In this document: in pieces, positions 14,038-32,824 of the stretch
How positions within the stretch are numbered: the stretch's first letter is position 1
Layout: the number at the start of each line of letters is the position of its first letter
DNA from: Cymbomonas tetramitiformis
Lineage: Eukaryota; Chlorophyta; Pyramimonadophyceae; Pyramimonadales; Pyramimonadaceae
Assembly (NCBI GenBank): GCA_001247695.2
Contig: LGRX02003538.1
Span: 1 to 64,000 of the forward strand
Direction of reading: 5' to 3'
Length of the DNA stretch: 64,000 nucleotides
Position numbers and translations under genes: made by a program
Notes under the pieces: model-generated
Database searches by the model: none
Seen by the model: the letters and a program-made list of their open reading frames with translations, nothing else
What the model was told of the DNA's origin: nothing

Positions 14038-14273
14038 AATCGAATAAAGAAGCGAATACAAATCCAAATAAAGATCGCAAACGAAAAATCGTCGGAGAGC
14101 ACCACCTCGTCGTAATCACCCAAAGCCGTAAGCAGCCGCCTCCAGAAATTACGTAGAATCTGTTCTAAAGCGTCCCACAAGGCGTGGAGACGCTTAACCG
14201 AAAGATAGGGCGGAAATAAAATAAAATTCTACGCTAAAATTCAGTTCACGCAAGCGTGAGAAGGACCATAACC

Positions 14274-14450
14274 TGCTAGAAACAGCAGCTCAGGCAGTGG
14301 GGAACCGTTGCCGACGGAGAAACAACGGATCACTAAACTCGGATATACAAACGATATATACCCGAGATGAGTGACACAGGCTGACCACCGAAGATGACAT
14401 ACAGGAATGACACTAGACTGTACGAACTAGTCGTAGTGTCAATTCCAGCA
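14274..14450 (-). repeat. 5-prime LTR of TR-GAG#2
   Basis: Starts TGCTGGAATTG and ends GTTTCTAGCA on the minus strand, followed by GGTTATGGTCC. Confidence 0.88.
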
Positions 14451-14455
14451 TCGCA

Positions 14456-15991
14456 GCTTACAGCATGCATGTCAATTACATGCACGCGCTTGTATGAATC
14501 ACATTCAAAAATTGTTCAGAATGATATATAGCATAGTAATCATCGACGGAATTTTGATCCGTATACATGTCAGCGCTCGTATCATGCGCTGATAAATGGC
14601 AACGACGATACATGTTTTTCATCAGCAGCGCGCCCTATTGCATAAGTTATTTGCAGCGTGCTATGAAAGATTTCAATTTACGATGATGATGATGTCGAGA
14701 TGTTGTTAAGATCAACTGCACAATACATACTTACATTAAAATACTCTGCACAACAACTAATACTCGCAGGCATATTTTGGACGCATGCATGATTGACATC
14801 TGATATTATACTGCAGCACACACCACATATTGATGACTGCACAAATATTCAAGTTGTCAGCATTTCATGCTTATCTCAATATAGTGTGCAAGATGTTTAT
14901 TTAAACACACACTAACATGCAGCACACATTACATGCAGCATCTAAGTATATACACATTCTATACTGAATGACTGCCACACTGTAAGTTGTGCATGCATCA
15001 TCATAACAGATGTTATATATTATCCAGCTTGATCACGGTAGCAGCTGGAATAGATGGCATCAAATCACAATACATTAGACGTGCACAAAAGCATACTTGC
15101 AGTGCATGCTAACTATATTCGAACCCATATAGTGTAAGGTGCCTGTTCAGTAATCTTAACACAGTAATTAGTTCGTTATGTCCCGGTGGAGTCGAGATAC
15201 TCCTCGGACCACATATCGTTCTACTGTGGATCACTGAAAGGATTGCTCACCGGAACTATATATGTGAAATATATACCAGCAACTCATTTTGTAAATGAGA
15301 TTATCTTGGAATTACAATAACCTCTAAACTAATATATCATGCTAGATCTATTCAGTGCATGGTATACTGATTATCCTGCATGATAAACTGTCTGGAAATA
15401 TTGTAATGTCCAGAACTTATCTTTCTGTAAAGTGTGTAAAAGTGAGCACACACACACACACTGTGGCAAAAAGTACTAATCAATAAGTACTATACATACA
15501 CACACTGCATTACTGTATGTATTGATATTCACTGATTCGTAGTGAATTGACCAACTTTAATATCTATCATGAATATGATAATGTAGATAACACTTCACAA
15601 ACACATGTGCGTGTGAAGTGTCAGTGATGGCGATAGATATGGGAACAGATAATCCAACATGCTGAAGGGCTGGATGGAGTTATCTCCAGACCCGAAGGCA
15701 ATATACTGTGCCCATGCAACAGCTGGTAACTGTTGGGCGCAGTCCATTCGCCATTCCACATATCATCGCTGGAGCAACAACAACAAGTACATTGCATAAT
15801 GACAATTGATACAGATTTGATCAGTTCAAAATGCATGTAACTCTTTCAGAGCAGTAACTATATTGACATCTGATAGAAGTTGTTGAGGACAAGCACACAC
15901 ATACAAATGTGTTGTGTCAAACTGCTTTGATTATATCAAGCAATGTCCTGATATGTTTAAAATAAGAGATATCATTTTGATAAATCTTAGA
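14456..15991 (+). other. Gypsy-B leader, second segment
   Basis: Non-coding leader from the TR-GAG#2 insertion point to the Chromo-A insertion point. Blocks at 15010-15290 and 15600-15900 align with 5340-5590 and 6010-6260 of the deleted copy. Confidence 0.6.
15024..15048 (+). promoter_or_regulatory. leader stem-loop with palindromic TGATCA loop, copy 3
   Basis: Same CCAGCT/AGCTGG stem. The loop differs by one base from the copies at 5349 and 5978, outside TGATCA. Confidence 0.55.
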
Positions 15992-15996
15992 GCACA

Positions 15997-16423
15997 TGTA
16001 GGAGTCTACACCTTGACTTCTTCTCTTCTTTACGGTTTCGGACTTATACTATCTACACTTATTAAACGACCGCACGAGGTATGATTACGCTTGGTCAACT
16101 AAAAGACTTCGGTTTCGTAAATCTTATTAGTTATGCTTTTGCTTTCAAGTGCATGCTTTCAATACACAATATACAGCAGTTACGGCTCTTACTTTTTATG
16201 TTACAATTCACAGTTCAGTTCATCTCTCCGAAACGGGTTACACTTAGAGTTCTTATACATTCAGGAACTCTTTCCATAACTCAACTGTACTGAGTACTCC
16301 GTACAACAGTCTAGGCACCTCACATCAACATCATTCTGATCGGTCCTACTGTACTCCGTACTGAGTACTCCTGCGTTTTATACTTAGCCGTTTTTCTTGC
16401 TCTTGTGCTTGCCTCCTAGCACA
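15997..16423 (-). repeat. 3-prime LTR (427 bp) of Chromo-A
   Basis: In plus orientation it starts TGTAGGAGTC and ends CCTAGCACA. Same length as the LTR at 30173. Confidence 0.95.
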
Positions 16424-16441
16424 ACTCCCCCCCCCTTAGGG
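16424..16441 (-). other. polypurine tract of Chromo-A
   Basis: On the minus strand CCTAAGGGGGGGGGAGT lies directly against the 3-prime LTR, the expected primer site for plus-strand DNA synthesis. Confidence 0.75.
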
Positions 16442-16479
16442 AAGGTCACGTCCACGCTGACCACGTCGGATCAGTAAAG

Positions 16480-17130
16480 TTTTTATACAGATCTTCTACT
16501 GTTGCTCTGAATGATTATACAGGTCTCAGCCGCCTGTTGTCTGGGATGACATTACACTTCCCAAGACACACCGCAATAAGGAGATCGACCTCTTAAGCAC
16601 AAGGGTCGGCCTCTCACCGGTCTGCCATCTGCACTACCAGGCTCCCCCAAGGCTCAAGGTCTCACATCCATTACCACGCTCAAGGTTTTAAACCTCCCAA
16701 CACGGTACACTTACAGGGGATGACAATAGGTTTGCCAATTACCTGACAGTTCTCGGGATGCCGGCCCGGAGGAAAGGTTTTAAACCTTCACCGCCTCCTC
16801 GGAGTGCTAGAGCTTTTACCCAGATCTCCAACTGCTGCCCGGTCGTGCCAGGTCCGGAGCCAATGCTCTCGTGAAATGGATTATACAGATTTCCACCTGT
16901 TGCCTGGTCGCGCCGAGGCTAGAGCCACTGCTCACTTGGATAGATTACCCAGGTTCTCACCTGCCGCTTGGTCATACCAAGGCTTAGAGCCACTGCTCAA
17001 ATGGATTATACAGATTTCCACCTGTTGCCTGGCTGTGCCGAGGCTAGAGCCACTGCTCTCTCGGATGGATTACCCAGGTTCTCACCTGCCGCCTGGTCTC
17101 GCCAAGGCTGGAGCCACCGCTCTTCCCGAC
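16480..17130 (-). repeat. tandem 65-70-bp repeats in the Chromo-A 3-prime region
   Basis: About five imperfect units sharing TTCCACCTGTTGCCTGG or TTCTCACCTGCCGC and GCTAGAGCCACTGCTC. No coding function is evident. The repeats lie between the pol stop codon and the purine tract. Confidence 0.7.
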
Positions 17131-17144
17131 GCTCCCCAACGCTC

Positions 17145-20100
17145 TCAATCGCTAAGACCACTCGCGTCAGATTCCCATCCGCCCTCAGGTATGATCGTCA
17201 CCTCAGCTCGCACTCCCGCTAACGCTATCGGTTCCGGCTCAAACTCGGGCGGGTCACTCTCAACAACAGCTGACTGGACTAAAACGCTCATCTCGCTCAG
17301 ATCCTCCCTGACAAGCAGTTCAGACAGGAACGCATGCACCTCTTCATGTAGGGTCAGGTTGTGGAAAAGCTGTTTTAACAGTGCTGACGGAATCCCATAC
17401 AAATTCTCTCGCGCTCCCATGCCCTTCGCGAACACACCTCCGGCTCTCATCGCGCGCCCTCCTTGCGCTACTTTCTCGTGCCTACCGTGCTGCCGGAAGA
17501 ACTCGCAAGGCGTATCGGAATCGCACACTCGCAAGGGTGTGCGCAACGGAACGTTGGTCCAGATGTGCGTGGGCTTCCTGTATGCGGTCCCGTATTTGCA
17601 GTACGTGACGAGGTGCGGAGCTGGTAGATTGCTCATGCAGCGACGCGTGTGCAACCCGTGGGGCTCTCTTCCCCTCGGGTTCTCAATGAAGTATGCTTCG
17701 GGCCTCAAGTACCGGATGATCTCCAATGTCCTACGAACTCGCCTGTCCGCAGCACGCAAATCTCGGATGCCTACCGTCTTCGCTTGGCTGTACTCTGTGC
17801 AAGGTGGGCTAGCCCAGACTACGTCGAAGTGTCCTGGTCTGAACTGTCGGTAGTCCCATCGCATGATATCCTCGCAATGTGTGGGGCCCCACTTGGGCTG
17901 AATGTCTACGGCAACTACTTCGCTGTTGGGAAATTGCTTAGTGAACTGCCTCTCGACTGACCCGGTCCCACAAAACAATACAAGAATCTTAGACTGGCCG
18001 ACTGGCTCCTTCTCAAGTGCTGCGGCTCCGTTGACTGGCGGCAGGGTGCTCTGAGCAGATACTCTCGCGAAAGTTCCTACTTCCTCATCAAACCTCTCCT
18101 CTGGCACCCATGGCATTGCTCCGTCTACCTTGAGCTCCTCCGATAGCGTGGTCCATACCGCTCCTGCGGACTCGTCGCGTCTCTTACGGACCCTAAGCTT
18201 CTCTCGCTCCACTCTCTTAGCCTCGATCCTCTCAAACTCCAACAACGCTCGGTTGGGAACACCGGGCCTGCCGGCTCCGTCCCACTCCAGATCCTCTCGG
18301 GTCTTCCACTCGTTCTCACTGCGGGGCATTCCTGTCCACTTGACCAGGTACTCTGTCCACCTCCTGCCCTGGCGCTGGCGCGTGCGCGAACGCTCCACCC
18401 TCTCGACGTGGGTTTCCTTGCGCCCGCTGACGTCCAACGGAGGAGGGGGAATCTCCTTAGCTCTCTCAACGAAGCGGCTGCCCGACTCTACTGGCGAAAG
18501 CCGGTCCACGGTAAACACATCGTGCACTTTCCACTGCTTAGGCGTCTGCAACCTATAGGCCGACGGTGCACCTCTATCGCTCGCGGGAAGGGCCATCTGC
18601 CTGTCGCTGTGAAAGACTTCCAGCACCCGAAGGGGCCCAAGGCGCTTCTTAAGCAATTTCTTGTGCAACCCGCGGTCGCCCGGCTGGGTGAGGTGCGTGG
18701 CATCCACCCAAACCTCATCGCCTACTGCGTAACTCCTGGACCTGTGACGCGCGTCGTACTGGGCGATCTGTTGCTGCTGAGCTAAGAGCAGCTTCTCCCT
18801 AGCGAGCTGCAACTGGCGAACAAACTGGCGGGCTGTCTCGTGGGCTGTACCCTTTTTTACTGCTGCGCCCCTCCCCCCCTTAGCTCGGCCTCTCCGTGAT
18901 GCAAGTGCTGCCTCCACGAAGAAGTCCAGCTGAGAGGCCGGAGCGTGACCATACGTCAGTTCAAAAGGGGTGAATCCCGTGACGGCGGAACGAGAGTCAT
19001 TAATGGCGTACTCGACCGGGGTACACCATAAATCCCAATCGTGCTGGTTGGCGTCGACATACGCGCGCAACATGCGTTCGACCGTGTGGTTTGTGTGCTC
19101 TGCCTGCCCATCACCTTGTGGGTGGTACGGCGTGGTAGAGGCAACCTGGACTCCCATCAACCGATGTAGCTCGAGATGCATCTCATCCCTGAAGCGGGAG
19201 TCCCGATCACAGACGATCTTCATGGGAGCGCCGTGCAAACGCCACACTTGGTCGAAATACATGCGCGCGATCTGTGCAGCTGAGCTGTCAGCGTAAAGCA
19301 TGGGGACTACGTGCACCATCTTGGACAACTTGTCCGTGAAGGTAGCAAACGCGTCGTACCCTCGCTCTGTGCGGGGCAGCCCAGTGACGAAGTCGATACT
19401 AACCACTTGCCACAGTCTTACTGGGACTTGCAGGGGGTTAAGCTGACCGTCTGGATACCCGTTGCGTGGCCGGGTCTGTTGGCACACAACGCAGGATTTG
19501 CACCAGTCGGTGACATCCTTGCTCATGCGTGGCCACCAAAAGCGACGGGATACTCTGTCCAGTGTCTTATCCCTTCCTGTGTGCCCTGCTGCTGGGGACT
19601 CGTGTGCTTCGCGCATCACCAGCTCTCTGAGGGGGGAATCCTGAGCTAGCACTAGCTGATACCGCCCTTCTGCCACTCGCCATATCATGTTGTCTACCAT
19701 GCGAAATGTGTCTGTCCTCTGATGTGGGGCTGCGATCAGTTCCTCCTTCAACGAGCTGAGGTACTGGCTGCGTTCGTATTCCGCTTGCAAGGCGCGGACG
19801 AACTCATCAGCCTTCAGTGGGCCTGATGCTGCCCTGGCCCTTGCTGCAACCCCTGTAGTGACTAAAGGCTCGTCGGGTTCTGCCTCACTGTCCTTTCGCG
19901 CAGGCGGCGCTCGGGGCTTTGCCCTGCTGGCTGCTGGGGCCCACACCAGAAGGACCGGCCAGCGCAGCGGGGGTCGACCTCCATCAGGGGACTCGAAGAG
20001 GTGGTTGGGACGACCTTTTTCGTCCTTCGTGTCAAAGACTTTGACCGGATGAAGCCCATACTTGGGGTGAATCAACCGTCTCCAGGGGGCGTCATAGTCT

Positions 20101-23057
20101 GGCAGAAGGAACATCGCCGAGGTGTTTTCCGGATCGGCGCGCCACTCAGCAAGGAAATGCCGAAGAATTCTTTCTATCAAGTCTGAATCCTTCGTGTAAG
20201 GGGGGTTGCACCAAACGTGTTTCCCGCGCCACTTTTCCTTCAAGCAATCGGTCCAATAGGTGTCAACCTGCCGGTTAACGCCCATGGAGTCGCAACACGC
20301 GTCAACGTCAAACACCCCGTACTGGGCCGCTATCTCCTCAAAGCGCTCCCTGATCAGCTTCCAGTCCTGGCGATCTACGACCTGGTCGTAGTGGGAGCTA
20401 CTTTCTGGGGGCTTAACGGGCTCAGGTACCTTTCCGGCCGCCTTTGGATGACTCTGGGCCTCAGGGTGGGGGAACTTCGGGTGACTCTGGACTTCTGCTG
20501 TGGCCTGTTCCCTAGCTCGGTCTGCTCTGGTCATGACTGCTAGCGATTCGGCATCCCTCAAGGATTTCTCGCCTACTGCTAGGGTGGCAGCTGCGTCCAG
20601 CCAAAGGGCCGGCGACTCTACCCACGTGAGCCCATTCAGATGGGTGAGCTCACCAATGACCGGTGCTGGACTGGTGGGAGGGACGGACTCGTCCTCGGAA
20701 TCACTATACTCGAAGGTGGCGCCTAAGACAGATGTGGGATCCTCGTCCCCTTCGCATCTCTTGCCTTTCGGCTCAGAGTACTCGGGTCCATCAGATCCAT
20801 CGGTGGTGCGATCCACTGCCCCGAGGACAGAGGTAGGATCCTCGTCCTCTTCGGACCCCTTGCCTGCCGGTGCGGAGTCTCTGGGCCCATCCGTGGCGCG
20901 ATCCACAATCCCTTTTTCCTTCAACCCTTCTCTGGCTGACATTTCCTGATAGTCTGGTCGCCGGGACTGCGCGTCTGGTACTACTAAACAGCGCCCTGGC
21001 ACGTGCTCCATCTGATGGACTCCTACCTCTACCAAGTCCTCGTACCAGCGAGCCTGACGTCGGCTGAGCTCCCTAGCTGGGGCGAAGAGCCACTGAAGGG
21101 GTTTATGGTCTCCCATGAGCTTAAATGATGTGAAAATCAGATAATGTCTCCAGGTGACCGTGGTGCAGTGATGGATGGCACAAAGCTCCCGTTCCCCAGC
21201 GTGATAGTTCTGCTCTGCGCTGGAGAACTGCCGGCTTTCAAAGGCCAAGGGCTGTAAGCCTCGTCCCTGATCCTGCATGAGTACACCCCCTAGTGCTACC
21301 CCACTGGCATCTGTCTGCACAAAGAAGGGTCTGGAACCGTCTGCTGCACCCTTTTGATCGGGTAGGGCCAAGGCTGGGGAGGAGATCAAGGCAGTTTTTA
21401 GCTGTTTAAATGCTGCCTTTTCATTCTCGCCCCAGGTCCAGTCCACGCCGGATTTGGTGAGGCGGGTCAACGGGTACGCGATATCTGCGAAGTTCTGGAT
21501 GTACCTCCGGTAGAAGCCACACATGCCCAGAAACTGTCGCACGTGTGTGACAGTTTCTAGGTCTGGCCAATCGCGTACCGACGCAACCTTATCCTGCTGT
21601 GGACGACATCCATCCCGATCCACCACATGCCCTAGGAACCGGACTGATCGCTTGCACAATTTGACTTTCGACTTTTTGAGGTAGACGGAATTCTTTCGAC
21701 ATGCATCCAGGACCTGGCGGAGGTGGTCGAGGTGTACCTCATGGGCGCTCTTACCCGGAACCTCAGCTGAGAAAATCATGATGTCATCTACAAATACTCT
21801 GCAAAAGGGTAGGTGCCCGAGGTACTGTTGCATCATCCTTTGCCAGGTACTTGGGGAGTTTGACAATCCCATAGGCATGACCAACCACTCATACGCTCCA
21901 AAGTGCGTAGTCATTGCGGTTTTCTCCACGTCCTCTGCTTTCATAGGGACCTGCCAAAATCCCCAAAGGGCATCCATCGTAGAGAAGACGGTAGCCCCTT
22001 GTAGATCATCTAAGAGACTCTGGACATCCGGGAGGGGGTACTTGTCCTTGACTGTGATCTCATTGATCTGTCTGTAGTCAATGACTAGACGCAACTCCTT
22101 GGGATTACTCGGCTTGGGGACCATCAGCACAGGGCAGCCCCACGGAGAGGCCGAGGGTCGTATGTACCCTTTGGCTAAGAGCTCATCTAGCTGTTGCCGG
22201 AGTTGCCGCAACTCCTCCTGCGACAGCTTGTACCCTCGCCGGTGCAAGGCGTTCCCACTCCAATCTGGCCTGAGCCGGATGCCGGACTTGAATTCCCTTG
22301 ACTGGACTGATTCCGGCAGCTCTGTGCAAATGATATCTGCGAACTCCTTTTCCAGGTCCCTAAGCTGCTGCCAGATTTCCGGCGACACCGTCTCGTCTAT
22401 CTCGTCCTCCGGCGGTTCCGGGGAGGCCTGAGCAGTCTGTGGGGCTGGCGGCGAGGTAGTACTTGGCGGGGCGGCCGGTACCGGCGGGTCTGTGGTCTGC
22501 GGAGCTGGCGGCGGGGTAGTGTCTGGCGGCACGACTGGTGCCGAGGCTCGCGACTTCTGACTCTGAGGACTCGGGACAGTGGGGACTTTTGGTCCCGGCG
22601 GCTGCTCGGTGGAGGGGCCACTTTCAGCACCAGGCTGACCGACTGCTGCGACCTGGTCACGCCAACGCACTCGCTTACGCCGTGCTCGGGGTCGTCGCTC
22701 CGCGACCAGACCCCGGCCCTGCTGGAGCGCCGCGGCTGCCTGCGCGTGCCAGGTGGGTGGCTTCCCGGCCGCGTGATCCTCTATCGCCTGTCTACGCACC
22801 GCTGGCGGAAGCAACGCAAATGCTCCGTTCGCCTCCTGTTTGCTAGCGAAAAAGCTGAGAGGGTCAGGGTGATCCCCGGCCTCGTCGACCGTACTCGCAA
22901 ATCCCTGTGGCCTAATATCCTCGACCACCGCCCCTACTCTCTGCAAATGACACGCTCCTTCCACGTCACTATAGCCGGACTCGGAACTGTCCGAGACCAA
23001 CCCTCCCGGCCCCTCAGACTCCTCAGCTCCGTCCGGCACCGTTGCGCTGGGACGCAC
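17145..23057 (-). CDS. pol: Chromo-A pol: RT, RNase H, Dam-like MTase, integrase, chromodomain, C5-like MTase
   Basis: One uninterrupted frame of 1,970 residues. Residues 1-230 are acidic then Pro-rich. Reverse transcriptase spans about 290-490, with catalytic FVDD at 422-425. RNase H spans about 575-700, with TDAS, GERE and GDHK carrying the acidic residues. About 700-885 is a low-complexity insert with an internal repeat (EDEDPTSVLGA). About 890-1045 is a Dam-like adenine-N6 methyltransferase with FDVDAC and the NPPY catalytic motif at 951-954. Integrase spans about 1140-1400, with an HHCC zinc-binding motif and a DDE core (SIDFVTG, CDRDSRF, QAEHTN). The chromodomain is at 1548-1600 (YLVKWTGMPRSENEW). 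About 1692-1900 is a C5-cytosine-like methyltransferase: FCGTGS, DIQP, SPPCTEYS, ENPRG, KPTHIWTN. The frame stays open about 17 codons upstream of 23057 and joins the protease frame at a run of eight G by a -1 shift. The RT, RNase H and integrase catalytic residues are present and the frame has no stops, so it is probably active. Confidence 0.93.
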   Translation of the reverse strand: MRPSATVPDGAEESEGPGGLVSDSSESGYSDVEGACHLQRVGAVVEDIRPQGFASTVDEAGDHPDPLSFFASKQEANGAFALLPPAVRRQAIEDHAAGKPPTWHAQAAAALQQGRGLVAERRPRARRKRVRWRDQVAAVGQPGAESGPSTEQPPGPKVPTVPSPQSQKSRASAPVVPPDTTPPPAPQTTDPPVPAAPPSTTSPPAPQTAQASPEPPEDEIDETVSPEIWQQLRDLEKEFADIICTELPESVQSREFKSGIRLRPDWSGNALHRRGYKLSQEELRQLRQQLDELLAKGYIRPSASPWGCPVLMVPKPSNPKELRLVIDYRQINEITVKDKYPLPDVQSLLDDLQGATVFSTMDALWGFWQVPMKAEDVEKTAMTTHFGAYEWLVMPMGLSNSPSTWQRMMQQYLGHLPFCRVFVDDIMIFSAEVPGKSAHEVHLDHLRQVLDACRKNSVYLKKSKVKLCKRSVRFLGHVVDRDGCRPQQDKVASVRDWPDLETVTHVRQFLGMCGFYRRYIQNFADIAYPLTRLTKSGVDWTWGENEKAAFKQLKTALISSPALALPDQKGAADGSRPFFVQTDASGVALGGVLMQDQGRGLQPLAFESRQFSSAEQNYHAGERELCAIHHCTTVTWRHYLIFTSFKLMGDHKPLQWLFAPARELSRRQARWYEDLVEVGVHQMEHVPGRCLVVPDAQSRRPDYQEMSAREGLKEKGIVDRATDGPRDSAPAGKGSEEDEDPTSVLGAVDRTTDGSDGPEYSEPKGKRCEGDEDPTSVLGATFEYSDSEDESVPPTSPAPVIGELTHLNGLTWVESPALWLDAAATLAVGEKSLRDAESLAVMTRADRAREQATAEVQSHPKFPHPEAQSHPKAAGKVPEPVKPPESSSHYDQVVDRQDWKLIRERFEEIAAQYGVFDVDACCDSMGVNRQVDTYWTDCLKEKWRGKHVWCNPPYTKDSDLIERILRHFLAEWRADPENTSAMFLLPDYDAPWRRLIHPKYGLHPVKVFDTKDEKGRPNHLFESPDGGRPPLRWPVLLVWAPAASRAKPRAPPARKDSEAEPDEPLVTTGVAARARAASGPLKADEFVRALQAEYERSQYLSSLKEELIAAPHQRTDTFRMVDNMIWRVAEGRYQLVLAQDSPLRELVMREAHESPAAGHTGRDKTLDRVSRRFWWPRMSKDVTDWCKSCVVCQQTRPRNGYPDGQLNPLQVPVRLWQVVSIDFVTGLPRTERGYDAFATFTDKLSKMVHVVPMLYADSSAAQIARMYFDQVWRLHGAPMKIVCDRDSRFRDEMHLELHRLMGVQVASTTPYHPQGDGQAEHTNHTVERMLRAYVDANQHDWDLWCTPVEYAINDSRSAVTGFTPFELTYGHAPASQLDFFVEAALASRRGRAKGGRGAAVKKGTAHETARQFVRQLQLAREKLLLAQQQQIAQYDARHRSRSYAVGDEVWVDATHLTQPGDRGLHKKLLKKRLGPLRVLEVFHSDRQMALPASDRGAPSAYRLQTPKQWKVHDVFTVDRLSPVESGSRFVERAKEIPPPPLDVSGRKETHVERVERSRTRQRQGRRWTEYLVKWTGMPRSENEWKTREDLEWDGAGRPGVPNRALLEFERIEAKRVEREKLRVRKRRDESAGAVWTTLSEELKVDGAMPWVPEERFDEEVGTFARVSAQSTLPPVNGAAALEKEPVGQSKILVLFCGTGSVERQFTKQFPNSEVVAVDIQPKWGPTHCEDIMRWDYRQFRPGHFDVVWASPPCTEYSQAKTVGIRDLRAADRRVRRTLEIIRYLRPEAYFIENPRGREPHGLHTRRCMSNLPAPHLVTYCKYGTAYRKPTHIWTNVPLRTPLRVCDSDTPCEFFRQHGRHEKVAQGGRAMRAGGVFAKGMGARENLYGIPSALLKQLFHNLTLHEEVHAFLSELLVREDLSEMSVLVQSAVVESDPPEFEPEPIALAGVRAEVTIIPEGGWESDASGLSD

Positions 23058-23107
23058 GCTGACTTCACTATCCTCGGACCCGGAGGAGGGTTCTGACGCT
23101 AGGCCTG

Positions 23108-24600
23108 CTACAACATCGTTGGGGGAATCTTCGTCGGAGTCTCCCCCCCCTTGTTGCAGGCCAACGCGCCAAAAGTCCCATCGGGGCCGAGGTAGACGAC
23201 GAAAGCCTGCTCCTCTCTGTTTCGGAGGGTCCGCAGGTCCCGGCGAGCTCGACGTTGGCTCAAAAGGACTCCCTGTACCAGTGCCATTGCCGTGTCCTTG
23301 GACCGACTGGGGTCCGGTGACCCCGGCGAACAGCCGGTGATGACGACCTCTTCCCTGCCCTTGGTGAACCGGACCGAACCCCAGTTCTTATAATCCAGCG
23401 TAACCGGGGAAAGGTTCGCCAGCCAAGGACCTCCCAGGATGACATCCACCTTGAGGTCGAGTGGCATTACCCGAAGCTCAACCTGCTGGCCGTAAGACCC
23501 CTTCGACGTCTCAGCAAGGAGCTTGGGCCTGATGCAGGAATTAGCATCATATGTGGTGCCGTCAGCCACTCGAACCCGCATGGCTTGCTCGTGGCGCACC
23601 GGCTTGACGCCGGAGAGCCTCTGCAGTGTACTCTTTGCGATGATATTGGTGGATGCTCCCGAATCCACTAACACCTTGACTCTGACGCCCGCAATCCAGG
23701 CCCAAAACAGCAACAACGTCGGTGTGCGACTGTGCCTGTCGAAACTCCTCGGGCGCGCTCCCATCGAGGACACCGCTGCCAGGGACTCACACCAGCTCGG
23801 ACTGATATCGCCGTCCTGCATTATGCAGTCCAGGCGGGTGACTGACGTTTCTGCGTCGGAGTCACAGTCCGGGAGGCAGTAAGTACACGCGTCCGCTAGC
23901 AGGCCGATGGCGACTGCTTTCTGAACTGCGCTGCGCTCTGGGAAGTCTGGGGGGGACACCGCGACTTGGACTGACGCTGCAGCCAGTTTAGCCGCTATGT
24001 GCTTTCTGACTTGCTCGTCCCGGTGCATCAGCTCATTGTCTTGCTGAAGTTCCCTATTCTCCCTTTCCAACTCCTCCTTTACGAAGGCGTGGAAGTCCGC
24101 ATGGCGTTCTGTTGAGGTAGAAGCCGGGTCCCTACCCTCCAACTCGTATCTGCGCTGCAATCGAGAGGTTCGAAGCGCCTTGTCTTCAGGAGTCAGCCAT
24201 GGTCTGCGTTTCGGGCCCAAAGCCTGGCGAGCCCTGCTTCGGGTCAACCACGGCCGACTGGGCTTTGAAGTTCTCTCTGGTGGTGAGAGTTCTTCTCCCT
24301 CGGCAGGCTTGGGCTTGGCAACGCGAACAAACCGTCCGAACTCCTGATCCAAGATGGCTTTGCGTCGGCGATTGAACTCGCGCACCCTGACGAGCCGCTT
24401 CAAGCGCTTATCTAACTCTTCTCGATTCAACTGGGGCTTACTAGTCGTGGGTCCAAGCTTCTGGCTCATCCGCCTTTGCCCTGCCCTCCAAAGCGCAAGG
24501 GACTTGACCGGCCGGACCTCCGACTCTTCCAGCTTTAGATACCTTTCTAGCGCCCTGATGGCGGAACGCAGGCGAGCACTTGGCTGCTGGGCCTGAAAGG
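23108..24600 (-). CDS. Chromo-A protease frame
   Basis: A 453-residue frame from the ATG at 24469, open further upstream to about 24,690 (VRKAFQAQQPSARLRSAIRA...). The N-terminal half is Arg/Lys-rich and partly coiled-coil (EELERENRELQQDNELM). The retropepsin-like aspartic protease lies in the C-terminal half, with active-site LVDSGAS and the downstream VILGGPWL motif typical of Ty3/Gypsy proteases. It would process Gag and Gag-Pol. It ends at 23108 after GGETPTKIPPTML, and the pol frame takes over one base back at the run AAGGGGGGGGAG. That junction is either a -1 slip on G-GGG-GGG or a one-base loss. Confidence 0.8.
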
Positions 24601-25110
24601 CTTTCCTAACTCTGGGGGTAAACGCTGAGCTCTGAACTTCCAGTGCCCGCGAACTCTCGCAACATCCGACCCCTGGTTCTCCAGGTGCTGTTGGTAGACT
24701 GCCCGTGGCTCAACTGTGTGGCTCGACCGGTTTTTACCCCGGGTGTCCGCACCGGTGATCCAACAGAGCAGCTCCCACGGCTCCTCGGGACGCGGAACTG
24801 AGGCGGTTGCTGGGGTTCTGGCGGACTTCCAGAAGTTTGCCTGCTCTCTTTGGACGCGCTGCTCGACCTGTTCCCGCTCAGGAGGCGCTGGGCTTTCCGT
24901 GCGGGTGGCGGCTAGCATGTCTAAACCTTCCTGCTCATACCTCTCGACTCGACTCTGGCTCTTGAGGTGGCGCCTGGCGCTGCCACTAAGGTGACTCCCA
25001 CACCTTCTCCACCTATCATGCAGCACCTGCATCGCTGTGGACGCCGGCGCGGGGCCCTTTTGTCCCCCTGACCCCGCAGTGACGGGGCCCGCGCCCTTTA
25101 CCGCGGGGAG
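24547..25110 (-). CDS. Chromo-A linker frame between Gag and protease
   Basis: A frame open from 25290 overlaps the end of gag, in -1 relative to it. From about residue 85 it looks like real protein: charged, helical, Glu/Arg/Gln-rich (SQSRVERYEQEG, REQVEQRVQREQANFW, PRPEEPWELLCWI). It loses sense near 24,600-24,690, where the protease frame, again -1, picks up. The simplest reading is one continuous Gag-Pro-Pol chain broken here by single-base offsets. Whether these are programmed shifts, decay or assembly indels cannot be told from sequence alone. No domain is recognised. Confidence 0.5.
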   Translation of the reverse strand, partial: LPAVKGAGPVTAGSGGQKGPAPASTAMQVLHDRWRRCGSHLSGSARRHLKSQSRVERYEQEGLDMLAATRTESPAPPEREQVEQRVQREQANFWKSARTPATASVPRPEEPWELLCWITGADTRGKNRSSHTVEPRAVYQQHLENQGSDVARVRGHWKFRAQRLPPELGKPFRPSSQVLACVPPSGR

Positions 25111-28100
25111 GACGCCCCGGGCTGGGGAGCGTCCTCCTGGACAAAATCCAAACCGATGGCAGCCAAAGCTTCCTCCACCGACTCGTCCCCTATCAACGCC
25201 AGGGTGTCCTCCAGGAGGCACTTGGCCCACTCCTTCGGGCGCTGGCTCGCCTGCGGACAGTCGCGGGCATAATGGTCCATGCTCTTGCACAGACGGCAGC
25301 CCTCGTACTCTGGGGAGCCGAGTCGTTGCCCTGTGGGTGTCGGAGCGCCAGCGGATGTCGCCATGGCTAGCAGCTCCTCCGTGACATCTACGTGGGCCAG
25401 CAGCTGGACCGAGCGGCTCGTCTTATCCTGGCTCTGCCGCAACTCCCGCTCGGCCTCTATGGCCCAAGTCAGGAGTTCGTGGCGGCCTTTACTGGCCGTC
25501 CGGCTCAGAGTCAGGACCGAAGCGCCTTTCCTCTCGGCTATAAGGAAGACCTTCCTCCTTATCTCCGGTATCAATCCCGTAAGGAATATCTCCAGCAGCT
25601 CCTCTTCCGGCACCGGAGAGGTGAGCTCGTGGGCAGCCAGCATGCTCACGATGTCGTGAGCAAGGTGCACCCCGTCCCAGAACTCGCGGACCGTGCGAGT
25701 CTGTCTGTCCTGACTTTGACGCACGCGACGCAGGAACGGACCGATCGACGCCATTTCCCCCTTGTCGGGCATCACGAGCTGCGCCAAGGGAACCACTATG
25801 ACGTCCAGGGTGAGGTTCTTACCTTCCCGAGCCTCCGTCAACACCGAAGAAAGCTCGCGGTACTCGGAGCTGAGTTTGCCGAAGCAGTGTCTGGCCACTT
25901 CTGACAGCAGGGAGTGGTCCGACAACACCTTCTCCTCACCCCCGCTCTCTAGTGGTCCCAGACGCGCCATCTCCATGGCGTAGCGCACCGGCTCCAGTTC
26001 CCGAACCTCCCTGACCTGCCGAACAAATCGGAGGAGCCGACCAAAGACGTGGGACGACCCCTCCACCTCTGTGTGGTATTTGTCCACTGCCTTCTCCATG
26101 GCTCTGAGGGCCTCCTTGAGAGCGTGCTGCTCGTCCTTACGACTGTAATGGCTCCGGGGCTCCCTGTAACGAGAGGAAGACGAGAAGGTGAACTGGCTGT
26201 CGCCATCCCCGTCTTCGCCATCGCCGCCAGGGTCCTCGCCCGGACTCCCCGGGCCTCCCGGCCCTCCAGGGTCACCGCTCCCCGAGCCATCAGGACCACC
26301 ATGACTGCTGGCACCGGGCATCTCCGAAAGCTCGTTTGGCTCCGAGTGCTCCAGTTGAGGGACCATCCCCCCCCCGTCTCCCGGTGTGTCTGCCGCCGTA
26401 GGAAGCGGAGGTGGCATCACAGCCGGAAAGTGGTCGAAAGCACCGGGCCACACGTCCGCGGCACAAAACCCACACACCGGCAGGTACACCTTTTTCATGA
26501 ACGCCACCACACTCTTCTTAGCGCTTGCCTGACACGCCCACATACGCACCGGGCTCTCCTCGTGCCCGCACCCACAGCGAGCGCAGCTCTCTGCGACGGA
26601 CGCCAAGGCCGTCGTGAGACTGCGAATCACCTGGGCCCCGAGGACCCTGTCCTCGTCCGAGATCCTTGCCTTCAGGCACTGCCTGATCTGGTTGGTAGGG
26701 TGTAAGCACCCGGCGACCTGACCAAGGGTGCGATACCTACGAGCAGCGTCGTAAAACAGGCGCTGGGCTTCGATCCCCGAGTTGGCATACCCGGCCACGT
26801 GTTTCCGGAGGGCGTCGCAGACCTGTATAGGAAGGGAAATAAAGTCCCATGAGTGCGGCGGAAGCGCTGTCACGCCCGCGCGCGACTCCTCCGGAGGGCT
26901 TTGAACGCCCCGGTTCTCGACGTCACAGGTGACGACGGAAGTCGGCTCTACCAGCTCATGTCCCTCTCGGGAGATGGGCGTCTCCTGAACCGGACTCGAC
27001 GCTGCCGCTGAGGGCCCCCGAGCGTCTGACTCCACGGGCCCTGGGGGCGAGGCCTGAACCAGGGCGAGCCTTTGGACTTGTGACTCTATGACCGCCTGCA
27101 GCCTCTCCTCCAGCTGGGCCTCAGCTGCCGCTCGCCGCTCCTCAGCGGCTACCTGCTGAGCGACGCTCTCGTCGACAGCCAACTGCCGGGCAGTCTCCCG
27201 GGCTTCTGCGGCCAGCCGGTCTGCAGCCCAGCGCGCTTCGACAGCGCGTCGCTCGGAGACCCTGCGTTCCTCGGCAGCGCGCTGATCGGAGATCCTGCGC
27301 TCCTCGGCAGCTCTTTGACTCTCTTGGAGTTGCCGAGACAGCTGTTCCAGGCGAGCCTCGGCAGCCGCCTCCCGAGCTTGCGACTCCTTCTGCCAGGCTT
27401 CTTTCAGCTCTTGCAGGTCCTGACTGTTCCTGCCCGAGGTGGACTCCGGGGACGACGACGTGTTCCCTGAGGAAGTCGGACCGGGGTGCGGGGCCGATGG
27501 TGCTCGACTGGGCTTCCGGGTGCGAGGCACCGGGCGACTGGGGCCGCTCGGCTTAGGCGCCTGAGTCCTGGGCCTCGGACGTTCCGCAGGATGCTCTTCC
27601 TCCGATGAGGACGAGAGGGGAGCAAACCGGTTCGACCAGTTCCCACCGGGGGCTGCGGAACCCGGAGGTGCTGCACCTGACTTCCTAAGACCCCTGTGTG
27701 ACTTCCGGGTGCAGCCGCTCATTCTGACGGCCGCGACGACCGCTCTCCTTACCTCCTGGAGGTCCGCCCCTTGGCGTACCAGCTCCCCTGGTCTGCCGGC
27801 GTTGATGGCAAAGACAGGGAATCTACACCTCCCAAGGGAGTTGTGAGGGTCCTCGCGCTTTTGCTGCATCAACACCCTGGACTCGGAGACTGACTGCTGG
27901 TGGATCTCCAGGCGATAAGCGCCGTCCTCGGAGAGCCCATAGTCCTTGAGCTGGAACCACATTAGCCCTGACAGCGGGTGGTCTTTCCCCAGGCGCTTTA
28001 GGCCTCGACGGATGTCCTGCCACATAGACTCCTGGTCGGAATCCGAGCAAGAGCTGACACCGGATGAGGTTCCCGCCTTCCTTACCGGACGGCGGGCACT

Positions 28101-29192
28101 CGTTCCCTGGGACGAGTCCGAGCTGACTGGGGTCGTCCTGGGGAGCCGGCGCCACTCGCGAAGACACCTCCTGCCCATCTGGGTCATCCGGTGTCTCCGG
28201 GCTCCAACCCACCGGGTGCTCCTCTCCTTGGCGAGCATCGTCTGCTGGTGCCATGCCATGAAGACAGCTCCAGCTTGACGTCTGCCTCTGCGCCACAGAC
28301 CCTGTGTCTGGACGACATGCTGGCGCCATGCTGCGAAAGCGGACTCGACCCGGCGCCGACTGCCTTTGTCAAACAGGCCTTGAAGTTGGGCGACCTGTTG
28401 GGTGACGTCATTCCACGCTTGGAATGCCAGGCGCTGGAGCTCGCGCTGATGCGCTGACTGGTCCGTCCTGGCCCTCCATGCGACCCACGCAAGCCGCGCT
28501 GTTGCGCGCTGACGAGATGGCAGGGAGACTCTCGCACGTCGTTGCGCTGAATTCAGCGCCCAGGTGCTCCATTGACGGAGGGCCAATGCGAGCATGGATT
28601 GACGTCGCTCTCCTCGCCAAGCCGGATTGGGCCGGATGCGAGACTCGCGCCCCCGTGACTGGACGACGTCCAGCTGCTCTGGGCGCCGGACATCATCAGA
28701 CTCCCCTTCTGCCGGGGGGCTCCAGTCACTGGCTCGGTAAATCTCAAAGCGCCCTGGGGCACTGATGAGATTCCCTTGCTCGCTCCCCACGAGGGAAGAG
28801 AGGGAGGACGCTGCCGGTCCCGACGTCGGTTCCTGACGGACGACCCTACTACTCGCACTCTTGCTGGACGCAGGGAGTGGGGAGAAGGGAGCTGCCGAGG
28901 GGTTCAACCCCTTAGCAGAGCGGTCCGAGTCCGACCCGGAGCCGGCGCCTGCCGCCGGCGGTGCCGGAGCCTCGGGCGACGCACGCTTCCGGCGCGCCGG
29001 CTGCCGTAGCGCCGAGCTCAATGCGAGCTCGGACACTGGCTCAGCTCCACTGACCCTCGCTGGTGAAGGGGCTTTTGGTGGCGAGGCCCTACGGGGCCCA
29101 CCAGACAACCCTGGAGGGGCTCTCAGGGGCGTGCGCGCCGGTGTAACCTCGCGGGCTTCACCGCCGTATTGGCGCGCAAGCGCGCGCCGCAC
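25098..29192 (-). CDS. gag: Chromo-A Gag, 1,364 residues
   Basis: Much longer than usual Ty3/Gypsy Gags. Residues 1-150 are Ser/Pro/Ala-rich. Residues 200-350 contain repeated W motifs (LAWVAWR, LAFQAWN, AFAAWRQ, VFMAWHQ, CLREWRR) about 20-40 residues apart, resembling centrin-binding Sfi1 repeats. Residues 590-715 are a Glu/Arg/Ala coiled coil with RAAEERR repeats. Cysteines at 870-912 (CARCGCG, CGFC) may bind zinc. A Gly/Pro/Asp-rich stretch (960-1000) precedes a capsid-like helical region (about 1030-1255). A CCHC zinc knuckle (CRLCKSMDHYARDC) follows at 1299-1312. The frame begins with GTG right after a stop. The likely true start is the ATG at 29404 or 29398 in the preceding frame (MYSDEEECLG), joined by a -1 step at a run of nine G. 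Confidence 0.8.
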   Translation of the reverse strand: MRRALARQYGGEAREVTPARTPLRAPPGLSGGPRRASPPKAPSPARVSGAEPVSELALSSALRQPARRKRASPEAPAPPAAGAGSGSDSDRSAKGLNPSAAPFSPLPASSKSASSRVVRQEPTSGPAASSLSSLVGSEQGNLISAPGRFEIYRASDWSPPAEGESDDVRRPEQLDVVQSRGRESRIRPNPAWRGERRQSMLALALRQWSTWALNSAQRRARVSLPSRQRATARLAWVAWRARTDQSAHQRELQRLAFQAWNDVTQQVAQLQGLFDKGSRRRVESAFAAWRQHVVQTQGLWRRGRRQAGAVFMAWHQQTMLAKERSTRWVGARRHRMTQMGRRCLREWRRLPRTTPVSSDSSQGTSARRPVRKAGTSSGVSSCSDSDQESMWQDIRRGLKRLGKDHPLSGLMWFQLKDYGLSEDGAYRLEIHQQSVSESRVLMQQKREDPHNSLGRCRFPVFAINAGRPGELVRQGADLQEVRRAVVAAVRMSGCTRKSHRGLRKSGAAPPGSAAPGGNWSNRFAPLSSSSEEEHPAERPRPRTQAPKPSGPSRPVPRTRKPSRAPSAPHPGPTSSGNTSSSPESTSGRNSQDLQELKEAWQKESQAREAAAEARLEQLSRQLQESQRAAEERRISDQRAAEERRVSERRAVEARWAADRLAAEARETARQLAVDESVAQQVAAEERRAAAEAQLEERLQAVIESQVQRLALVQASPPGPVESDARGPSAAASSPVQETPISREGHELVEPTSVVTCDVENRGVQSPPEESRAGVTALPPHSWDFISLPIQVCDALRKHVAGYANSGIEAQRLFYDAARRYRTLGQVAGCLHPTNQIRQCLKARISDEDRVLGAQVIRSLTTALASVAESCARCGCGHEESPVRMWACQASAKKSVVAFMKKVYLPVCGFCAADVWPGAFDHFPAVMPPPLPTAADTPGDGGGMVPQLEHSEPNELSEMPGASSHGGPDGSGSGDPGGPGGPGSPGEDPGGDGEDGDGDSQFTFSSSSRYREPRSHYSRKDEQHALKEALRAMEKAVDKYHTEVEGSSHVFGRLLRFVRQVREVRELEPVRYAMEMARLGPLESGGEEKVLSDHSLLSEVARHCFGKLSSEYRELSSVLTEAREGKNLTLDVIVVPLAQLVMPDKGEMASIGPFLRRVRQSQDRQTRTVREFWDGVHLAHDIVSMLAAHELTSPVPEEELLEIFLTGLIPEIRRKVFLIAERKGASVLTLSRTASKGRHELLTWAIEAERELRQSQDKTSRSVQLLAHVDVTEELLAMATSAGAPTPTGQRLGSPEYEGCRLCKSMDHYARDCPQASQRPKEWAKCLLEDTLALIGDESVEEALAAIGLDFVQEDAPQPGASSPR

Positions 29193-29404
29193 TCCCCCCC
29201 CCTCTCACGGGAGCGCCAATCCCGGCTGTCTGACCCGCCAGCTGCGCCCCAGAACTCCCCAGAGCCTGGGCCAGCCGACAGGCCCGCAGCGCGAGACCCC
29301 GACCGACCGGACCCCACGGCTGAGCCGGGGGCGGCGCCGGCCCGACCCCCCCCACGCCGGCCCGACCGACCGAGGCATTCCTCTTCATCTGAATACATGG
29401 GCAT
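29193..29404 (-). CDS. probable N-terminal extension of Chromo-A Gag in the adjacent frame
   Basis: An ATG-initiated frame (MPMYSDEEECLGRSG...) runs Gly/Ser/Arg-rich to GAG AGG GGG GGG GAG. There the long gag frame lies one base back. It supplies the only sensible ATG for Gag. The junction context (A-G, GGG, GGG, GAG) is the same as at the protease-pol junction. Confidence 0.45.
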
Positions 29405-30172
29405 AGTATGCGTGCTATGCGTGAGACCTAATTTAGCTAAAGCCGAAAGTGTACACGACACACGTGGCAACTAGCACCCGCCGATCTAGAAATTTACCAC
29501 TTGCGCCCGAGCACAAGTGGCTACACCGGCCGAGGCGCGGAGATTTCCGGAAAGGAAGATCCTAGAAAGCTAAAGCCCCATGGGGGACATCAAACGTTGC
29601 ACGCTCGCAAATTAACCAATCGAAAAGCGGTTGGTGTGGCAACTAGTACCCGATCCCAGGAATACGCCACTTGCGCGCGAGCACAAGTAAGCACACCGGC
29701 CGAAGCGCGGAGATTCCCGAATAGGGGGGACTAGAAGGCTAAATTAAAGGTAGGGGAAATCCCGAACCAACCCCGAATTTCAGCAAAGGCTTACGCAAAA
29801 TTGAAAAATTTGCGCAGCGCTTCCGCCGCGAAGGGTCGGAATTGCCGAAAAACGGAGACGATTTGGTTTTCCCGCACCTGCGAGTCCAAAAGCACGTATA
29901 TGCGTGCTATGCGTGTATGCGTGCTAGGACTAAGGCAACGCGCGCACCTTAAAAGATTGTCGTCGGGCTAGATTCCTCCACACCGACGCGGTCCCAAGCG
30001 ACCTGGAACCCTCAATCCCACACACCACCGCGCAACAAGAACGAGAGCACAGGCATTCTCGATTTCGTAGTGCAAGTACTCGCTAGCTAATCGCACAAGG
30101 CGGGGCGGGCTGATCAGAATTTGCGCAAGAAAGACAAGGAAGCAACGTGAAAACACGAACTAATTACCATTT
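29405..30172 (-). other. Chromo-A 5-prime leader with primer-binding site and internal duplication
   Basis: Three bases inside the 5-prime LTR the minus strand reads TGGTAATTAGTTCGTG (complement of 30154-30169), a candidate tRNA primer-binding site. Two imperfect copies of about 110 bp (29467-29580 and 29638-29745) share ACTTGCGC and GAGCACAAGT. No coding frame is supported. Confidence 0.6.
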
Positions 30173-30599
30173 TGTAGGAGTCTACACCTTGACTTCTTCT
30201 CTTCTTTACGGTTTCGGACTTATACTATCTACACTTATTAAACGACCGCACGAGGTATGATTACGCTTGGTCAACTAAAAGACTTCGGTTTCGTAAATCT
30301 TATTAGTTATGCTTTTGCTTTCAAGTGCATGCTTTCAATACACAATATACAGCAGTTACGGCTCTTACTTTTTATGTTACAATTCACAGTTCAGTTCATC
30401 TCCCCGAAACGGGTTACACTTAGAGTTCTTACACATTCAGGAACTCTTTCCATAACTCAACTGTACTGAGTACTCCGTACAACAGTCTAGGCACCTCACA
30501 TCAACATCATTCTGATCGGTCCTACTGTACTCCGTACTGAGTACTCCTGCGTTTTATACTTAGCCGTTTTTCTTGCTCTTGTGCTTGCCTCCTAGCACA
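30173..30599 (-). repeat. 5-prime LTR (427 bp) of Chromo-A
   Basis: Plus-strand ends TGTAGGAGTC and CCTAGCACA, followed by the target duplication GCACA. Confidence 0.95.
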
Positions 30600-30604
30600 G
30601 CACA

Positions 30605-31580
30605 GACCTATGCTCAAAACATATCATAGATTGATAAATATCACTAAAGTGGATAATCCGCTTAAGTTGATGACTCTATATATATATATCATCAGAAAGT
30701 ACATTTACTGCCATGGGTTTAAATCAGTAAAACCCAGAAATGTGATCAACCTCAGATGTTGATATACAGCATAATTCACTTTTATGCCATGAAATTTGTC
30801 ATGTGCAAAGGAAAAGTGATTTGCAGTACTTCTGTACTTTGCAGTCCACACACACACAGAGATATGTATATATATATATATAGCCAAAAACGGCCAAAAT
30901 GGGTAAAATCCGTTTGCGATAGATTTGAAAATGGAAAATCGGACCCTATTTTATTTGATAATATGATTTTATACCTATTGAGGTATGAGAAAATCATAAT
31001 GACACATGTCATATCTCGTGTAACACCCTAGATAATAGGTGTGGAATATGTGGGGGTTACATAATGGCTGTAACACTAAATCGGTCAAAATGCTGTACGT
31101 GAAATACATTTTGAAAATTTCGGATTGATTTTTTTTTGCTAAAATGAATATTTAGCTATCAAATAATAATCCCTGATTTATGCAGCATGTGTAACACCCT
31201 GTAACACCCTAAAATTGAATGTGTGTGTCAGGGGTGTAACATACCTCCTGAAAACCACTTAACATTCAGTATGGTATCAAATGTAGTTTTGCTTTAAAAT
31301 GGTTGCAAAATATTTATACTGCTTTATTTTTACCTATTTTAGGGTTACTGATACCATGTAACACCCTAATCACATTATTGGGTATATGGGCCACTGAAAC
31401 CTAACATGCCCTAAAATGCCACTGTATATTCGAAAAACTTCGTGTTTGGCATTAACATATCATGCTGTATTCGACACAGACATGATTATATATCGGGCAA
31501 CAACCCTAAAACTGTAACAGATGCTTCCTATATGGAATGCATGCTATTTATGAGGTACAGGCAATTGACAACTGCCTTAT
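30605..31580 (+). other. Gypsy-B leader, third segment
   Basis: Continuation of the leader after the Chromo-A insertion. It includes a CA-repeat, a TATATA tract and several GTAACACCCTAA motifs. It ends abruptly at CTGCCTTAT, where a duplicated segment follows. Confidence 0.6.
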
Positions 31581-32262
31581 AATAAAGAAGCGAATACAAA
31601 TCCAAATAAAGATCGCAAACGAAAAATCGTCGGAGAGCACCACCTCGTCGTAATCACCCAAAGCCGTAAGCAGCCGCCTCCAGAAATTACGTAGAATCTG
31701 TTCTAAAGCGTCCCACAAGGCGTGGAGACGCTTAACCGAAAGATAGGGCGGAAATAAAATAAAATTCTACGCTAAAATTCAGTTCACGCAAGCGTGAGAA
31801 GGACCATAACCTGCTAGAAACAGCAGCTCAGGCAGTGGGGAACCGTTGCCGACGGAGAAACAACGGATCACTAAACTCGGATATACAAACGATATATACC
31901 CGAGATGAGTGACACAGGCTGACCACCGAAGATGACATACAGGAATGACACTAGACTGTACGAACTAGTCGTAGTGTCAATTCCAGCATCGCAGCTTACA
32001 GCATGCATGTCAATTACATGCACGCGCTTGTATGAATCACATTCAAAAATTGTTCAGAATGATATATAGCATAGTAATCATCGACGGAATTTTGATCCGT
32101 ATACATGTCAGCGCTCGTATCATGCGCTGATAAATGGCAACGACGATACATGTTTTTCATCAGCAGCGCGCCCTATTGCATAAGTTATTTGCAGCGTGCT
32201 ATGAAAGATTTCAATTTACGATGATGATGATGTCGAGATGTTGTTAAGATCAACTGCACAAT
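31581..32262. repeat. 682-bp duplicate of 14043-14724
   Basis: Carries the LTR and leader of TR-GAG#2 plus 274 bp of adjoining Gypsy-B leader, in the same orientation and apparently identical. It must postdate the TR-GAG#2 insertion. Confidence 0.85.
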
Positions 32263-32824
32263 TGGCTGTAACACTAAATCGGTCAAAATGCTGTACGTGA
32301 AATACATTTTGAAATTTTCGGATTGATTTTTTTTTTGCTAAAATGAATATTTAGCTATCAAATAACAATCCCTGATTTATGCAGCATGTGTAACACCCTG
32401 TAACACCCTAAAAATTGAATGTGTGTGTCAGGGGTGTAACATACCTCCTGAACACCACTTAACATTCAGTATGGTATTAAATGCAGTTTTGCTTAAAAAT
32501 AGTTGCAAAATATTTATACTGCTTTATTTTTACCTATTTTAGGGTTACTGATACCATGTAACACCCTAATCACATTATTGGGTATATGGGCCACTGTAAC
32601 CTAACATACCCTAAAATGCCACTATATATTCGATAAAACTTCGTGTTTGGCATAAGTATATCATGCTGTAATCGACACAGACGTGATGATATATCGGGCA
32701 ACAACCCTAAAACTGTAACAGATGCTTCCTATATGGAATGCATGCTATTTATGAGGTACAGGCAATTGACAACTGCCTTATATCACACTTCCTTGAGGGG
32801 GGAAGAAGGTGGATATATATATAT
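32263..32824 (+). other. Gypsy-B leader, second diverged copy of the 3-prime part
   Basis: Repeats 31064-31580 with scattered differences, then continues (ATATCACACTTCCTTGAGGGG) to the Mutator-like insertion. The same continuation occurs at 7400 in the deleted copy. Confidence 0.65.

Follow-up and report, generated by a model that had tools for sequence, protein, structure and literature searches.

Transposons are usually the targets of methylation, and the question raised by the locus described here is why a retrotransposon should carry putative methylation enzymes of its own. The locus lies in 64,000 nucleotides of DNA from the chlorophyte Cymbomonas tetramitiformis (GenBank assembly GCA_001247695.2, contig LGRX02003538.1, positions 1 to 64,000; this whole stretch is called the window below). 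It holds a Ty3/Gypsy retrotransposon, flanked by long terminal repeats (LTRs), whose Pol polyprotein includes both a Dam-like adenine methyltransferase domain and a C5-cytosine-methyltransferase-like domain. A first-pass annotation, made from the letters alone, had proposed this pair, and profile searches, fold models, phage relatives and conservation uphold it. The background on which it leaned is in print, since cytosine methyltransferases have been published in Gypsy and DIRS retrotransposons and Dam domains in DIRS elements (PMC5890265, PMC6338049, PMC3783388; all articles cited here are represented by excerpts). Its further statement, that no Ty3/Gypsy element with both was known, met no counter-example: literature searches directed at the pair in a single element, or at methyltransferases of chromoviruses or Ty3 elements, listed no element with both in open-licence PubMed Central (preprints and Repbase lay outside this scope). 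No element with both is named in the excerpt of PMC6338049, and the excerpts of PMC11347835 and PMC12730594 hold nothing comparable. Each type alone is known in retrotransposons; their union in one Ty3-type element appears, none having been found, to be new.

Domain order of Pol

The domains of Pol were placed with purpose-built profiles and with Pfam, which agree on their placement. A single open reading frame (ORF) does encode, as had been annotated, reverse transcriptase (RT), RNase H, an NPPY-type domain, integrase, a chromodomain and an SPPC/ENP-type domain, in this order:

17145..23057, minus strand: Pol ORF, 1970 aa (the open frame spans 17148-23387)
21621..22286, minus strand: RT, Pol residues 258-479, FVDD at 422 (Pfam RVT_1, 3.2e-30)
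21033..21434, minus strand: RNase H, Pol residues 542-675 (Pfam RT_RNaseH, 8.5e-28)
19929..20375, minus strand: Dam-like adenine methyltransferase domain, Pol residues 895-1043, NPPY at 951-954 (PF05869, phrog_111, hhalign, fold model)
18918..19631, minus strand: integrase with zinc-binding domain, Pol residues 1143-1380, D1222, D1284 and E1320 (Integrase_H2C2, 1.1e-23)
18276..18425, minus strand: chromodomain, Pol residues 1545-1594 (PF00385, Chromo, 1.1e-7 at 1550-1591)
17343..18035, minus strand: C5-cytosine-methyltransferase-like domain, Pol residues 1675-1905, core 1690-1868, SPPC at 1750-1753 and ENP at 1792-1794 (phrog_757, PF00145, fold model)

The integrase family rve was seen in the whole Pol at 2.8e-4, under the Pfam cutoff. 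The best solved sequence relative of Pol is the Ty3 Gag-Pol (1.6e-107, PDB), and the order protease, RT, RNase H, integrase with a Ty3-type RT is that of Ty3/Gypsy elements, protease and Pol being in separate frames in the window copy. The chromodomain stands C-terminal to the integrase, as in chromoviruses. Judged from its sequence, the element is a chromodomain-bearing Ty3-type retrotransposon, its chromovirus class being taken from the position of the chromodomain and not from a placement of its RT among named chromoviruses. Membership in DIRS (tyrosine recombinase, inverted or split repeats) is ruled out by the DDE integrase and the direct LTRs.

The two methyltransferase-like domains

The C5-like domain is recognized as a methyltransferase by sequence and by predicted fold. 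In the whole Pol, PF00145 (DNA_methylase) scored 19.6 bits (6.8e-4), below its cutoff of 22, and with the C-terminal slice alone it scored 24.1 bits; it is on this slice score, together with the fold and the catalytic PC and EN motifs, that the domain joins the family. The match to phrog_757 ("DNA methyltransferase") reached 3.1e-16 in the PHROGs search with Pol and 1.3e-17 for the domain itself. Each of the 50 Foldseek matches listed for its model is a C5-family chain, the best of them DNMT3 chains, and the PDB profile search led to a tRNA C38 methyltransferase, DNMT2 and DNMT1.

The Dam-like domain was found by PF05869 at 2e-8 in the whole-Pol Pfam search and at 9.8e-10 as a domain, with 38.8 bits against a cutoff of 28.1, the match covering profile positions 8-78 of 169 only and being accompanied by the D/NPPY motif. 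It also matched phrog_111 ("DNA methyltransferase", 6.4e-12, PHROGs) and a phage Dam (hhalign, 96.9%), and its model has a methyltransferase fold; the match to NCBIfam phage_N6A_met was weak, scoring 24.3 bits where the cutoff is 97.

Spread and conservation in the lineage

Relatives were collected by a protein search with Pol residues 870-1905, whose scoring was limited to the 7984 candidates with the most shared words. The search returned 103 proteins and, as they were retrieved through this region, rows without a methyltransferase are under-sampled. In the 104 Pol rows (window plus 103), both domains occur in 61, the Dam-like domain only in 10, the C5 domain only in 6 and neither in 27; some single-domain rows end before or begin after the expected place of the other domain, so that true loss is not implied. 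The exact domain order of the window Pol recurs in 49 of the 104, a broader spread than the first-pass annotation had claimed. All organism-named rows carrying both domains are from Cymbomonas tetramitiformis, in whose proteins the window slices found matches of 99% (C5, among the best 120 of 312 matches) and 100% (Dam-like), the top long match over residues 870-1905 being 82%.

Trees were built from the 80 rows with near-complete RT, RNase H and integrase, and again from 71 rows under a mixture model after the removal of nine long-branched, methyltransferase-free rows. In the 80-row tree, every methyltransferase-bearing row except P0079 falls in a single 56-row group (SH-aLRT 99).

Motifs were counted in domains covering more than 70% of their profile, i.e., 57 of the 67 C5 rows and 68 of the 71 Dam-like rows. 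SPPC and ENP are present in 57 of 57 C5 domains, and residues D919 and P986 of the Dam-like domain in 68 of 68. Among rows with a near-complete Dam-like domain, used as controls, the integrase D, D, E is kept in 63 of 64 and the RT DD in 50 of 53. For the 41 of 104 rows in which all six domains cover more than 75%, mean pairwise identity is 59.8 for RNase H, 53.9 for integrase, 53.2 for RT, 52.2 for C5, 42.4 for the chromodomain and 41.9 for the Dam-like domain; at the protein level, the C5 domain thus seems to be conserved across the lineage to much the same degree as RT and integrase. Architecture, predicted folds and spread of a diverse methyltransferase-bearing lineage can be regarded as established at the level of sequence.

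Several variants of the architecture were seen. P0045 has a C5 domain at its N-terminus and a partial second one near its C-terminus, P0077 has the Dam-like domain after C5, and P0079 has an N-terminal Dam-like stretch that was detected by the purpose-built profile only and not by Pfam. No chromodomain was found in P0066 and P0067. A PHD finger, a further chromatin-reader domain, is present in the Pol of P0028, P0029, P0030, P0032 and P0051.

The DNA of relatives was also searched. With the window Pol no locus was confirmed; with an 11-member Pol alignment 5 loci were confirmed out of 74 stretches, each in the C5 region only; and a scan with A1, confirmed by the Dam-like slice, gave none of 25.

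Origin of the two domains

Of the 238 C5 domains placed in a tree, the 53 from retroelements fall in a 101-row set (SH-aLRT 97) together with 48 standalone proteins and with none of the 79 IMG/VR domains. The IMG/VR relatives were the best 80 of 564 confirmed loci, with segments of up to 39% identity. Among the matches listed (best 120 of 312), the C5-like domain has its nearest sequences in further Pol copies and in standalone proteins; some of the standalone rows resemble Pol fragments (P0109 and P0132, with a chromodomain) and others are proteins of ~205 aa. In phages, the C5 slice found relatives in 11 of 50,697 records, at 28.6-34.4% identity over 65-80% of the slice. The donor of the C5 domain was likely viral or of bacterial type, to judge from these neighbours, and the donor itself was not found in the 238-domain tree. 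Going by its sequence neighbours, which are standalone proteins of compact size together with enzymes of viruses, a host DNMT is not favoured as donor. In Bacillus phage BM15 (L082, 583-1251), three adjacent genes carry the annotation cytosine-C5 methylase, and the relative of the retroelement C5 domain is the one in the middle.

In the large protein search the Dam-like slice retrieved 9 proteins, none from a phage, and by identity and domains all of them are pieces of the same lineage. Among 50,697 phage records it gave weak matches to 415, none of them spanning 80%.

The element and its surroundings

The first-pass annotation had given 17145-23057 as the element. These are the coordinates of Pol, and the whole element, with gag-like and protease ORFs, extends over 15997-30599. 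Its LTRs had been said to differ at about two of 427 positions, which is what the alignment gave. The remaining features are:

15997..30599, minus strand: whole LTR retrotransposon, 14,603 bp (LTR pair and flanks)
30173..30599, minus strand: 5' LTR, 427 bp, TGT...ACA, 99.5% identity to 15997-16423
30140..30172, minus strand: putative primer-binding region AAATGGTAATTAG..., adjoining the 5' LTR
25098..29192, minus strand: gag-like ORF, 1364 aa, C-terminal CCHC zinc knuckle at 0.0028 (below cutoff)
23108..24469, minus strand: aspartic protease ORF, 453 aa (PF13650, 8.6e-8)
23120..23153, minus strand: switch of homology between the protease and Pol frames (tblastn of P0001, P0002, P0003 and P0007), alongside a run of eight G at 23143-23150
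16424..16437, minus strand: purine run AAGGGGGGGGGAGT, putative polypurine tract, adjoining the 3' LTR
15997..16423, minus strand: 3' LTR, 427 bp

The two LTR mismatches are, in element sense, both G in the 5' LTR and A in the 3' LTR. The direct LTRs are accompanied by a short target duplication, as in Ty3/Gypsy elements, with GCACA on either side (15992-15996 and 30600-30604). We take 30140..30172 to be the primer-binding region, a reading not tied to any tRNA, and the purine run is presumably the polypurine tract. Protease and RT lie within a single protein in P0002, P0003 and P0007, and no standard slippery heptamer was found in the three frame overlaps; the frame change between protease and Pol may be specific to this copy, reflect programmed frameshifting or come from an error in sequencing.

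A 291-aa open frame in the third frame (24550-25422, minus strand) spans the gap between the gag-like and protease ORFs, part of it matching P0002 residues 1-77 (E 8e-6). Between Pol and the 3' LTR, imperfect tandem repeats with ~125 bp spacing occupy 16816-17123. A 682-bp repeat, 100% identical and in the same orientation, lies on each side of the element (14043-14724 and 31581-32262), which thus sits as if inside another repeat, and 31065-31581 is repeated at 32263-32782 (96%). A second Ty3-type element, on the plus strand at 36914-42138, has ORFs for gag, for protease-RT-RNase H-integrase and for a chromodomain, with no methyltransferase match in Pfam. Its CpG observed/expected ratio is 0.59 versus 0.84 in the two-methyltransferase Pol; GATC and CpG counts gave nothing decisive.

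What the domains may do

The reading to which we lean, by a modest balance of probability, is that a chromodomain-bearing Ty3-type lineage acquired two compact methyltransferase domains of phage or virus type and uses them for marking its own cDNA or the chromatin at its insertions. Processing by the protease would leave the C5 enzyme attached to the integrase-chromodomain protein, and from its place behind these two domains it would be expected to accompany the integration complex. It would then methylate cytosines, either in the cDNA before integration or in insertion-site chromatin, and new copies would land where methylation is already in place and insertions are tolerated. The Dam-like domain, which follows RNase H just as the DIRS domain does, would have an earlier part, modifying cDNA or RNA while these are still in the particle; it would be auxiliary and more dispensable, C5 being the core of the marking. 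Of the two halves, C5 is the likelier to methylate DNA, since its active-site motifs do not vary among the domains examined. A fuller programme in two steps, with RT-RNase H-Dam acting inside the particle on adenines in cDNA or RNA of the element itself and integrase-chromodomain-C5 writing cytosine methylation where chromatin is read, to build a tolerated silenced niche at each site, is rather unlikely in that complete form.

A number of observations weigh against the marking role. Compared with its nearest relatives, P0001-P0003, the window element shows its greatest divergence among the six domains in C5 (72-76%, compared with 82-88 for the chromodomain, 86-88 for RT, 86-90 for RNase H, 85-93 for the Dam-like domain and 92-97 for integrase). 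This could reflect faster change or domain exchange; it speaks against a C5 domain kept as well as the core, and has slightly lowered our confidence. The domain is short, ~200 aa as opposed to 270-330 in solved single-domain enzymes, and because the best PDB sequence match of its profile is a tRNA cytosine-38 methyltransferase (8.9e-5, followed by a 5-cytosine DNA methyltransferase at 1.6e-4), its substrate may be RNA. P0085 and P0090, without a methyltransferase, lie inside the 56-row group, so that the label "none" takes 4 changes on the 80 rows; the 2 changes on the 71-row tree are a flattered figure, P0085 being among the nine rows removed. The frame change before Pol means that the window copy may not be intact. 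Finally, NPP[YF] is kept in 51 of the 68 Dam-like domains, including NPPY in the window, and absent in 17 (7 changes on the 71-row tree; replacements include SLSS, DCTK and HGWF), and since it has been lost so often, two active enzymes are, on motif evidence, not a rule of the lineage.

These losses are the starting point for a rival, doubtful in our view, in which the Dam-like domain is generally non-catalytic and has been retained in Pol for binding nucleic acid or for its structural role, with C5 as the sole enzyme. The RT DD persists in 12 of 12 of the 17 that have an RT row and SPPC/ENP in 13 of 13 with a near-complete C5 domain, and the Dam-like domain has the lower identity given above; however, three quarters of the domains keep the motif, D919 and P986 never vary, and the loss is spread over several changes instead of one. 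A related alternative, which we consider unlikely, is that the Dam-like domain is a PCIF1-like RNA adenine methyltransferase acting on the element's own transcript, DNA being acted on by C5 only. The domain is small (~150 aa), and the nearest solved fold of its model is a cap-specific adenosine methyltransferase, the sole molecule that Foldseek lists at an E no higher than 0.001 (3 rows), which also tops VIA by 3 Z units (12.6 versus 9.1); the PDB entries concerned are presumably those of PCIF1. By sequence, in contrast, the domain groups with the phage Dam of PF05869, and its profile matched no cap-methyltransferase chain in the PDB up to E 10, giving four unrelated matches with E-values no better than 0.77. 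The PDB matches listed included no chain named as a phage Dam of PF05869 type, and a nearer fold comparison may thus be missing. A jumbo-phage survey raised RNA as a possible substrate of those small phage DAMs that lie closest to PCIF1 (PMC7824862). Because the motif is absent in those 17 domains and the nearest fold is that of an RNA methyltransferase, DNA is the less certain substrate of the Dam-like domain.

That the enzymes serve the host, by marking or restricting invading DNA viruses, is very improbable: a host-defence role has been proposed for transposon-borne methylases (PMC6338049), and the Cymbomonas genome has giant-virus and polinton-like insertions (PMC10675990), but their upkeep in a young-looking transposon is more simply explained by benefit to the element. 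An artefact of chimeric assembly or chance motif matches is barely conceivable. The first-pass annotation did lean on short motifs, but the same order recurs in 49 of 104 rows, E-values go down to 1e-17 and the fold models are confident; chance matches are ruled out by the PHROGs, Foldseek, hhalign and phrog_757 profile matches.

A large lineage of elements carries putative writers of two chemistries, of virus type by sequence. The reason for transposon-borne nucleic-acid methylation becomes testable here, the C5 motifs being always kept and the adenine motif lost several times in the domains examined, and it may bear on the repeat-rich Cymbomonas genome.

Comparison with known systems

LTR elements make up 15.3% of the Cymbomonas assembly, and a chromoviral pol in it has been called related to Chlamyvir (PMC10675990). 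Burns (2015) reported three Cymbomonas scaffolds with >10,000x coverage that match chromodomain, RNase H and cytosine DNA methyltransferase (PMC5741210); these may be elements of the two-methyltransferase kind.

With chromoviruses the element shares LTRs, a 5-bp flank repeat and the RT-RNase H-integrase-chromodomain order, and it differs in its two extra enzyme-like Pol domains and its 14.6 kb. The phage phrog_757 C5 enzymes and phage Dam proteins of PF05869 are related to the two added domains in sequence and motifs, but are stand-alone proteins outside any retrotransposon Pol. DNMT3 is known from LTR Copia and DIRS elements (PMC12344493), and SymbioDIRS-Dnmt3 and SymbioLINE-Dnmt likewise carry a retrotransposon-borne cytosine methyltransferase, in other retrotransposon classes and with DNMT-type enzymes (PMC5890265). 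For DNMT-carrying DIRS, de Mendoza and colleagues considered the cDNA likely to be methylated during reverse transcription, possibly affecting the insertion site (PMC5890265). Sola1-1_Ec32 of Ectocarpus is also an algal transposon with a prokaryote-like DNA methyltransferase, its ParB-methyltransferase accessory protein, but it is a DNA transposon with a single methyltransferase in a separate gene (PMC12477816). DIRS elements with an RT-RNase H-methyltransferase Pol have Dam (PF05869) directly behind RNase H, as here, and have a tyrosine recombinase without DDE integrase or aspartic protease, whereas the window element has a DDE integrase, a chromodomain, LTRs and a second methyltransferase (PMC3783388, PMC3266345). 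KnitGypsy-Dnmt3 of Klebsormidium nitens is likewise a Gypsy Pol with an added cytosine methyltransferase, which is reported to be under purifying selection; that enzyme is Dnmt3-related, with no adenine methyltransferase reported in the excerpt (PMC5890265), whereas the C5 domain of the window is nearest in sequence to compact standalone, phage and viral proteins and shares its Pol with a Dam-like domain.
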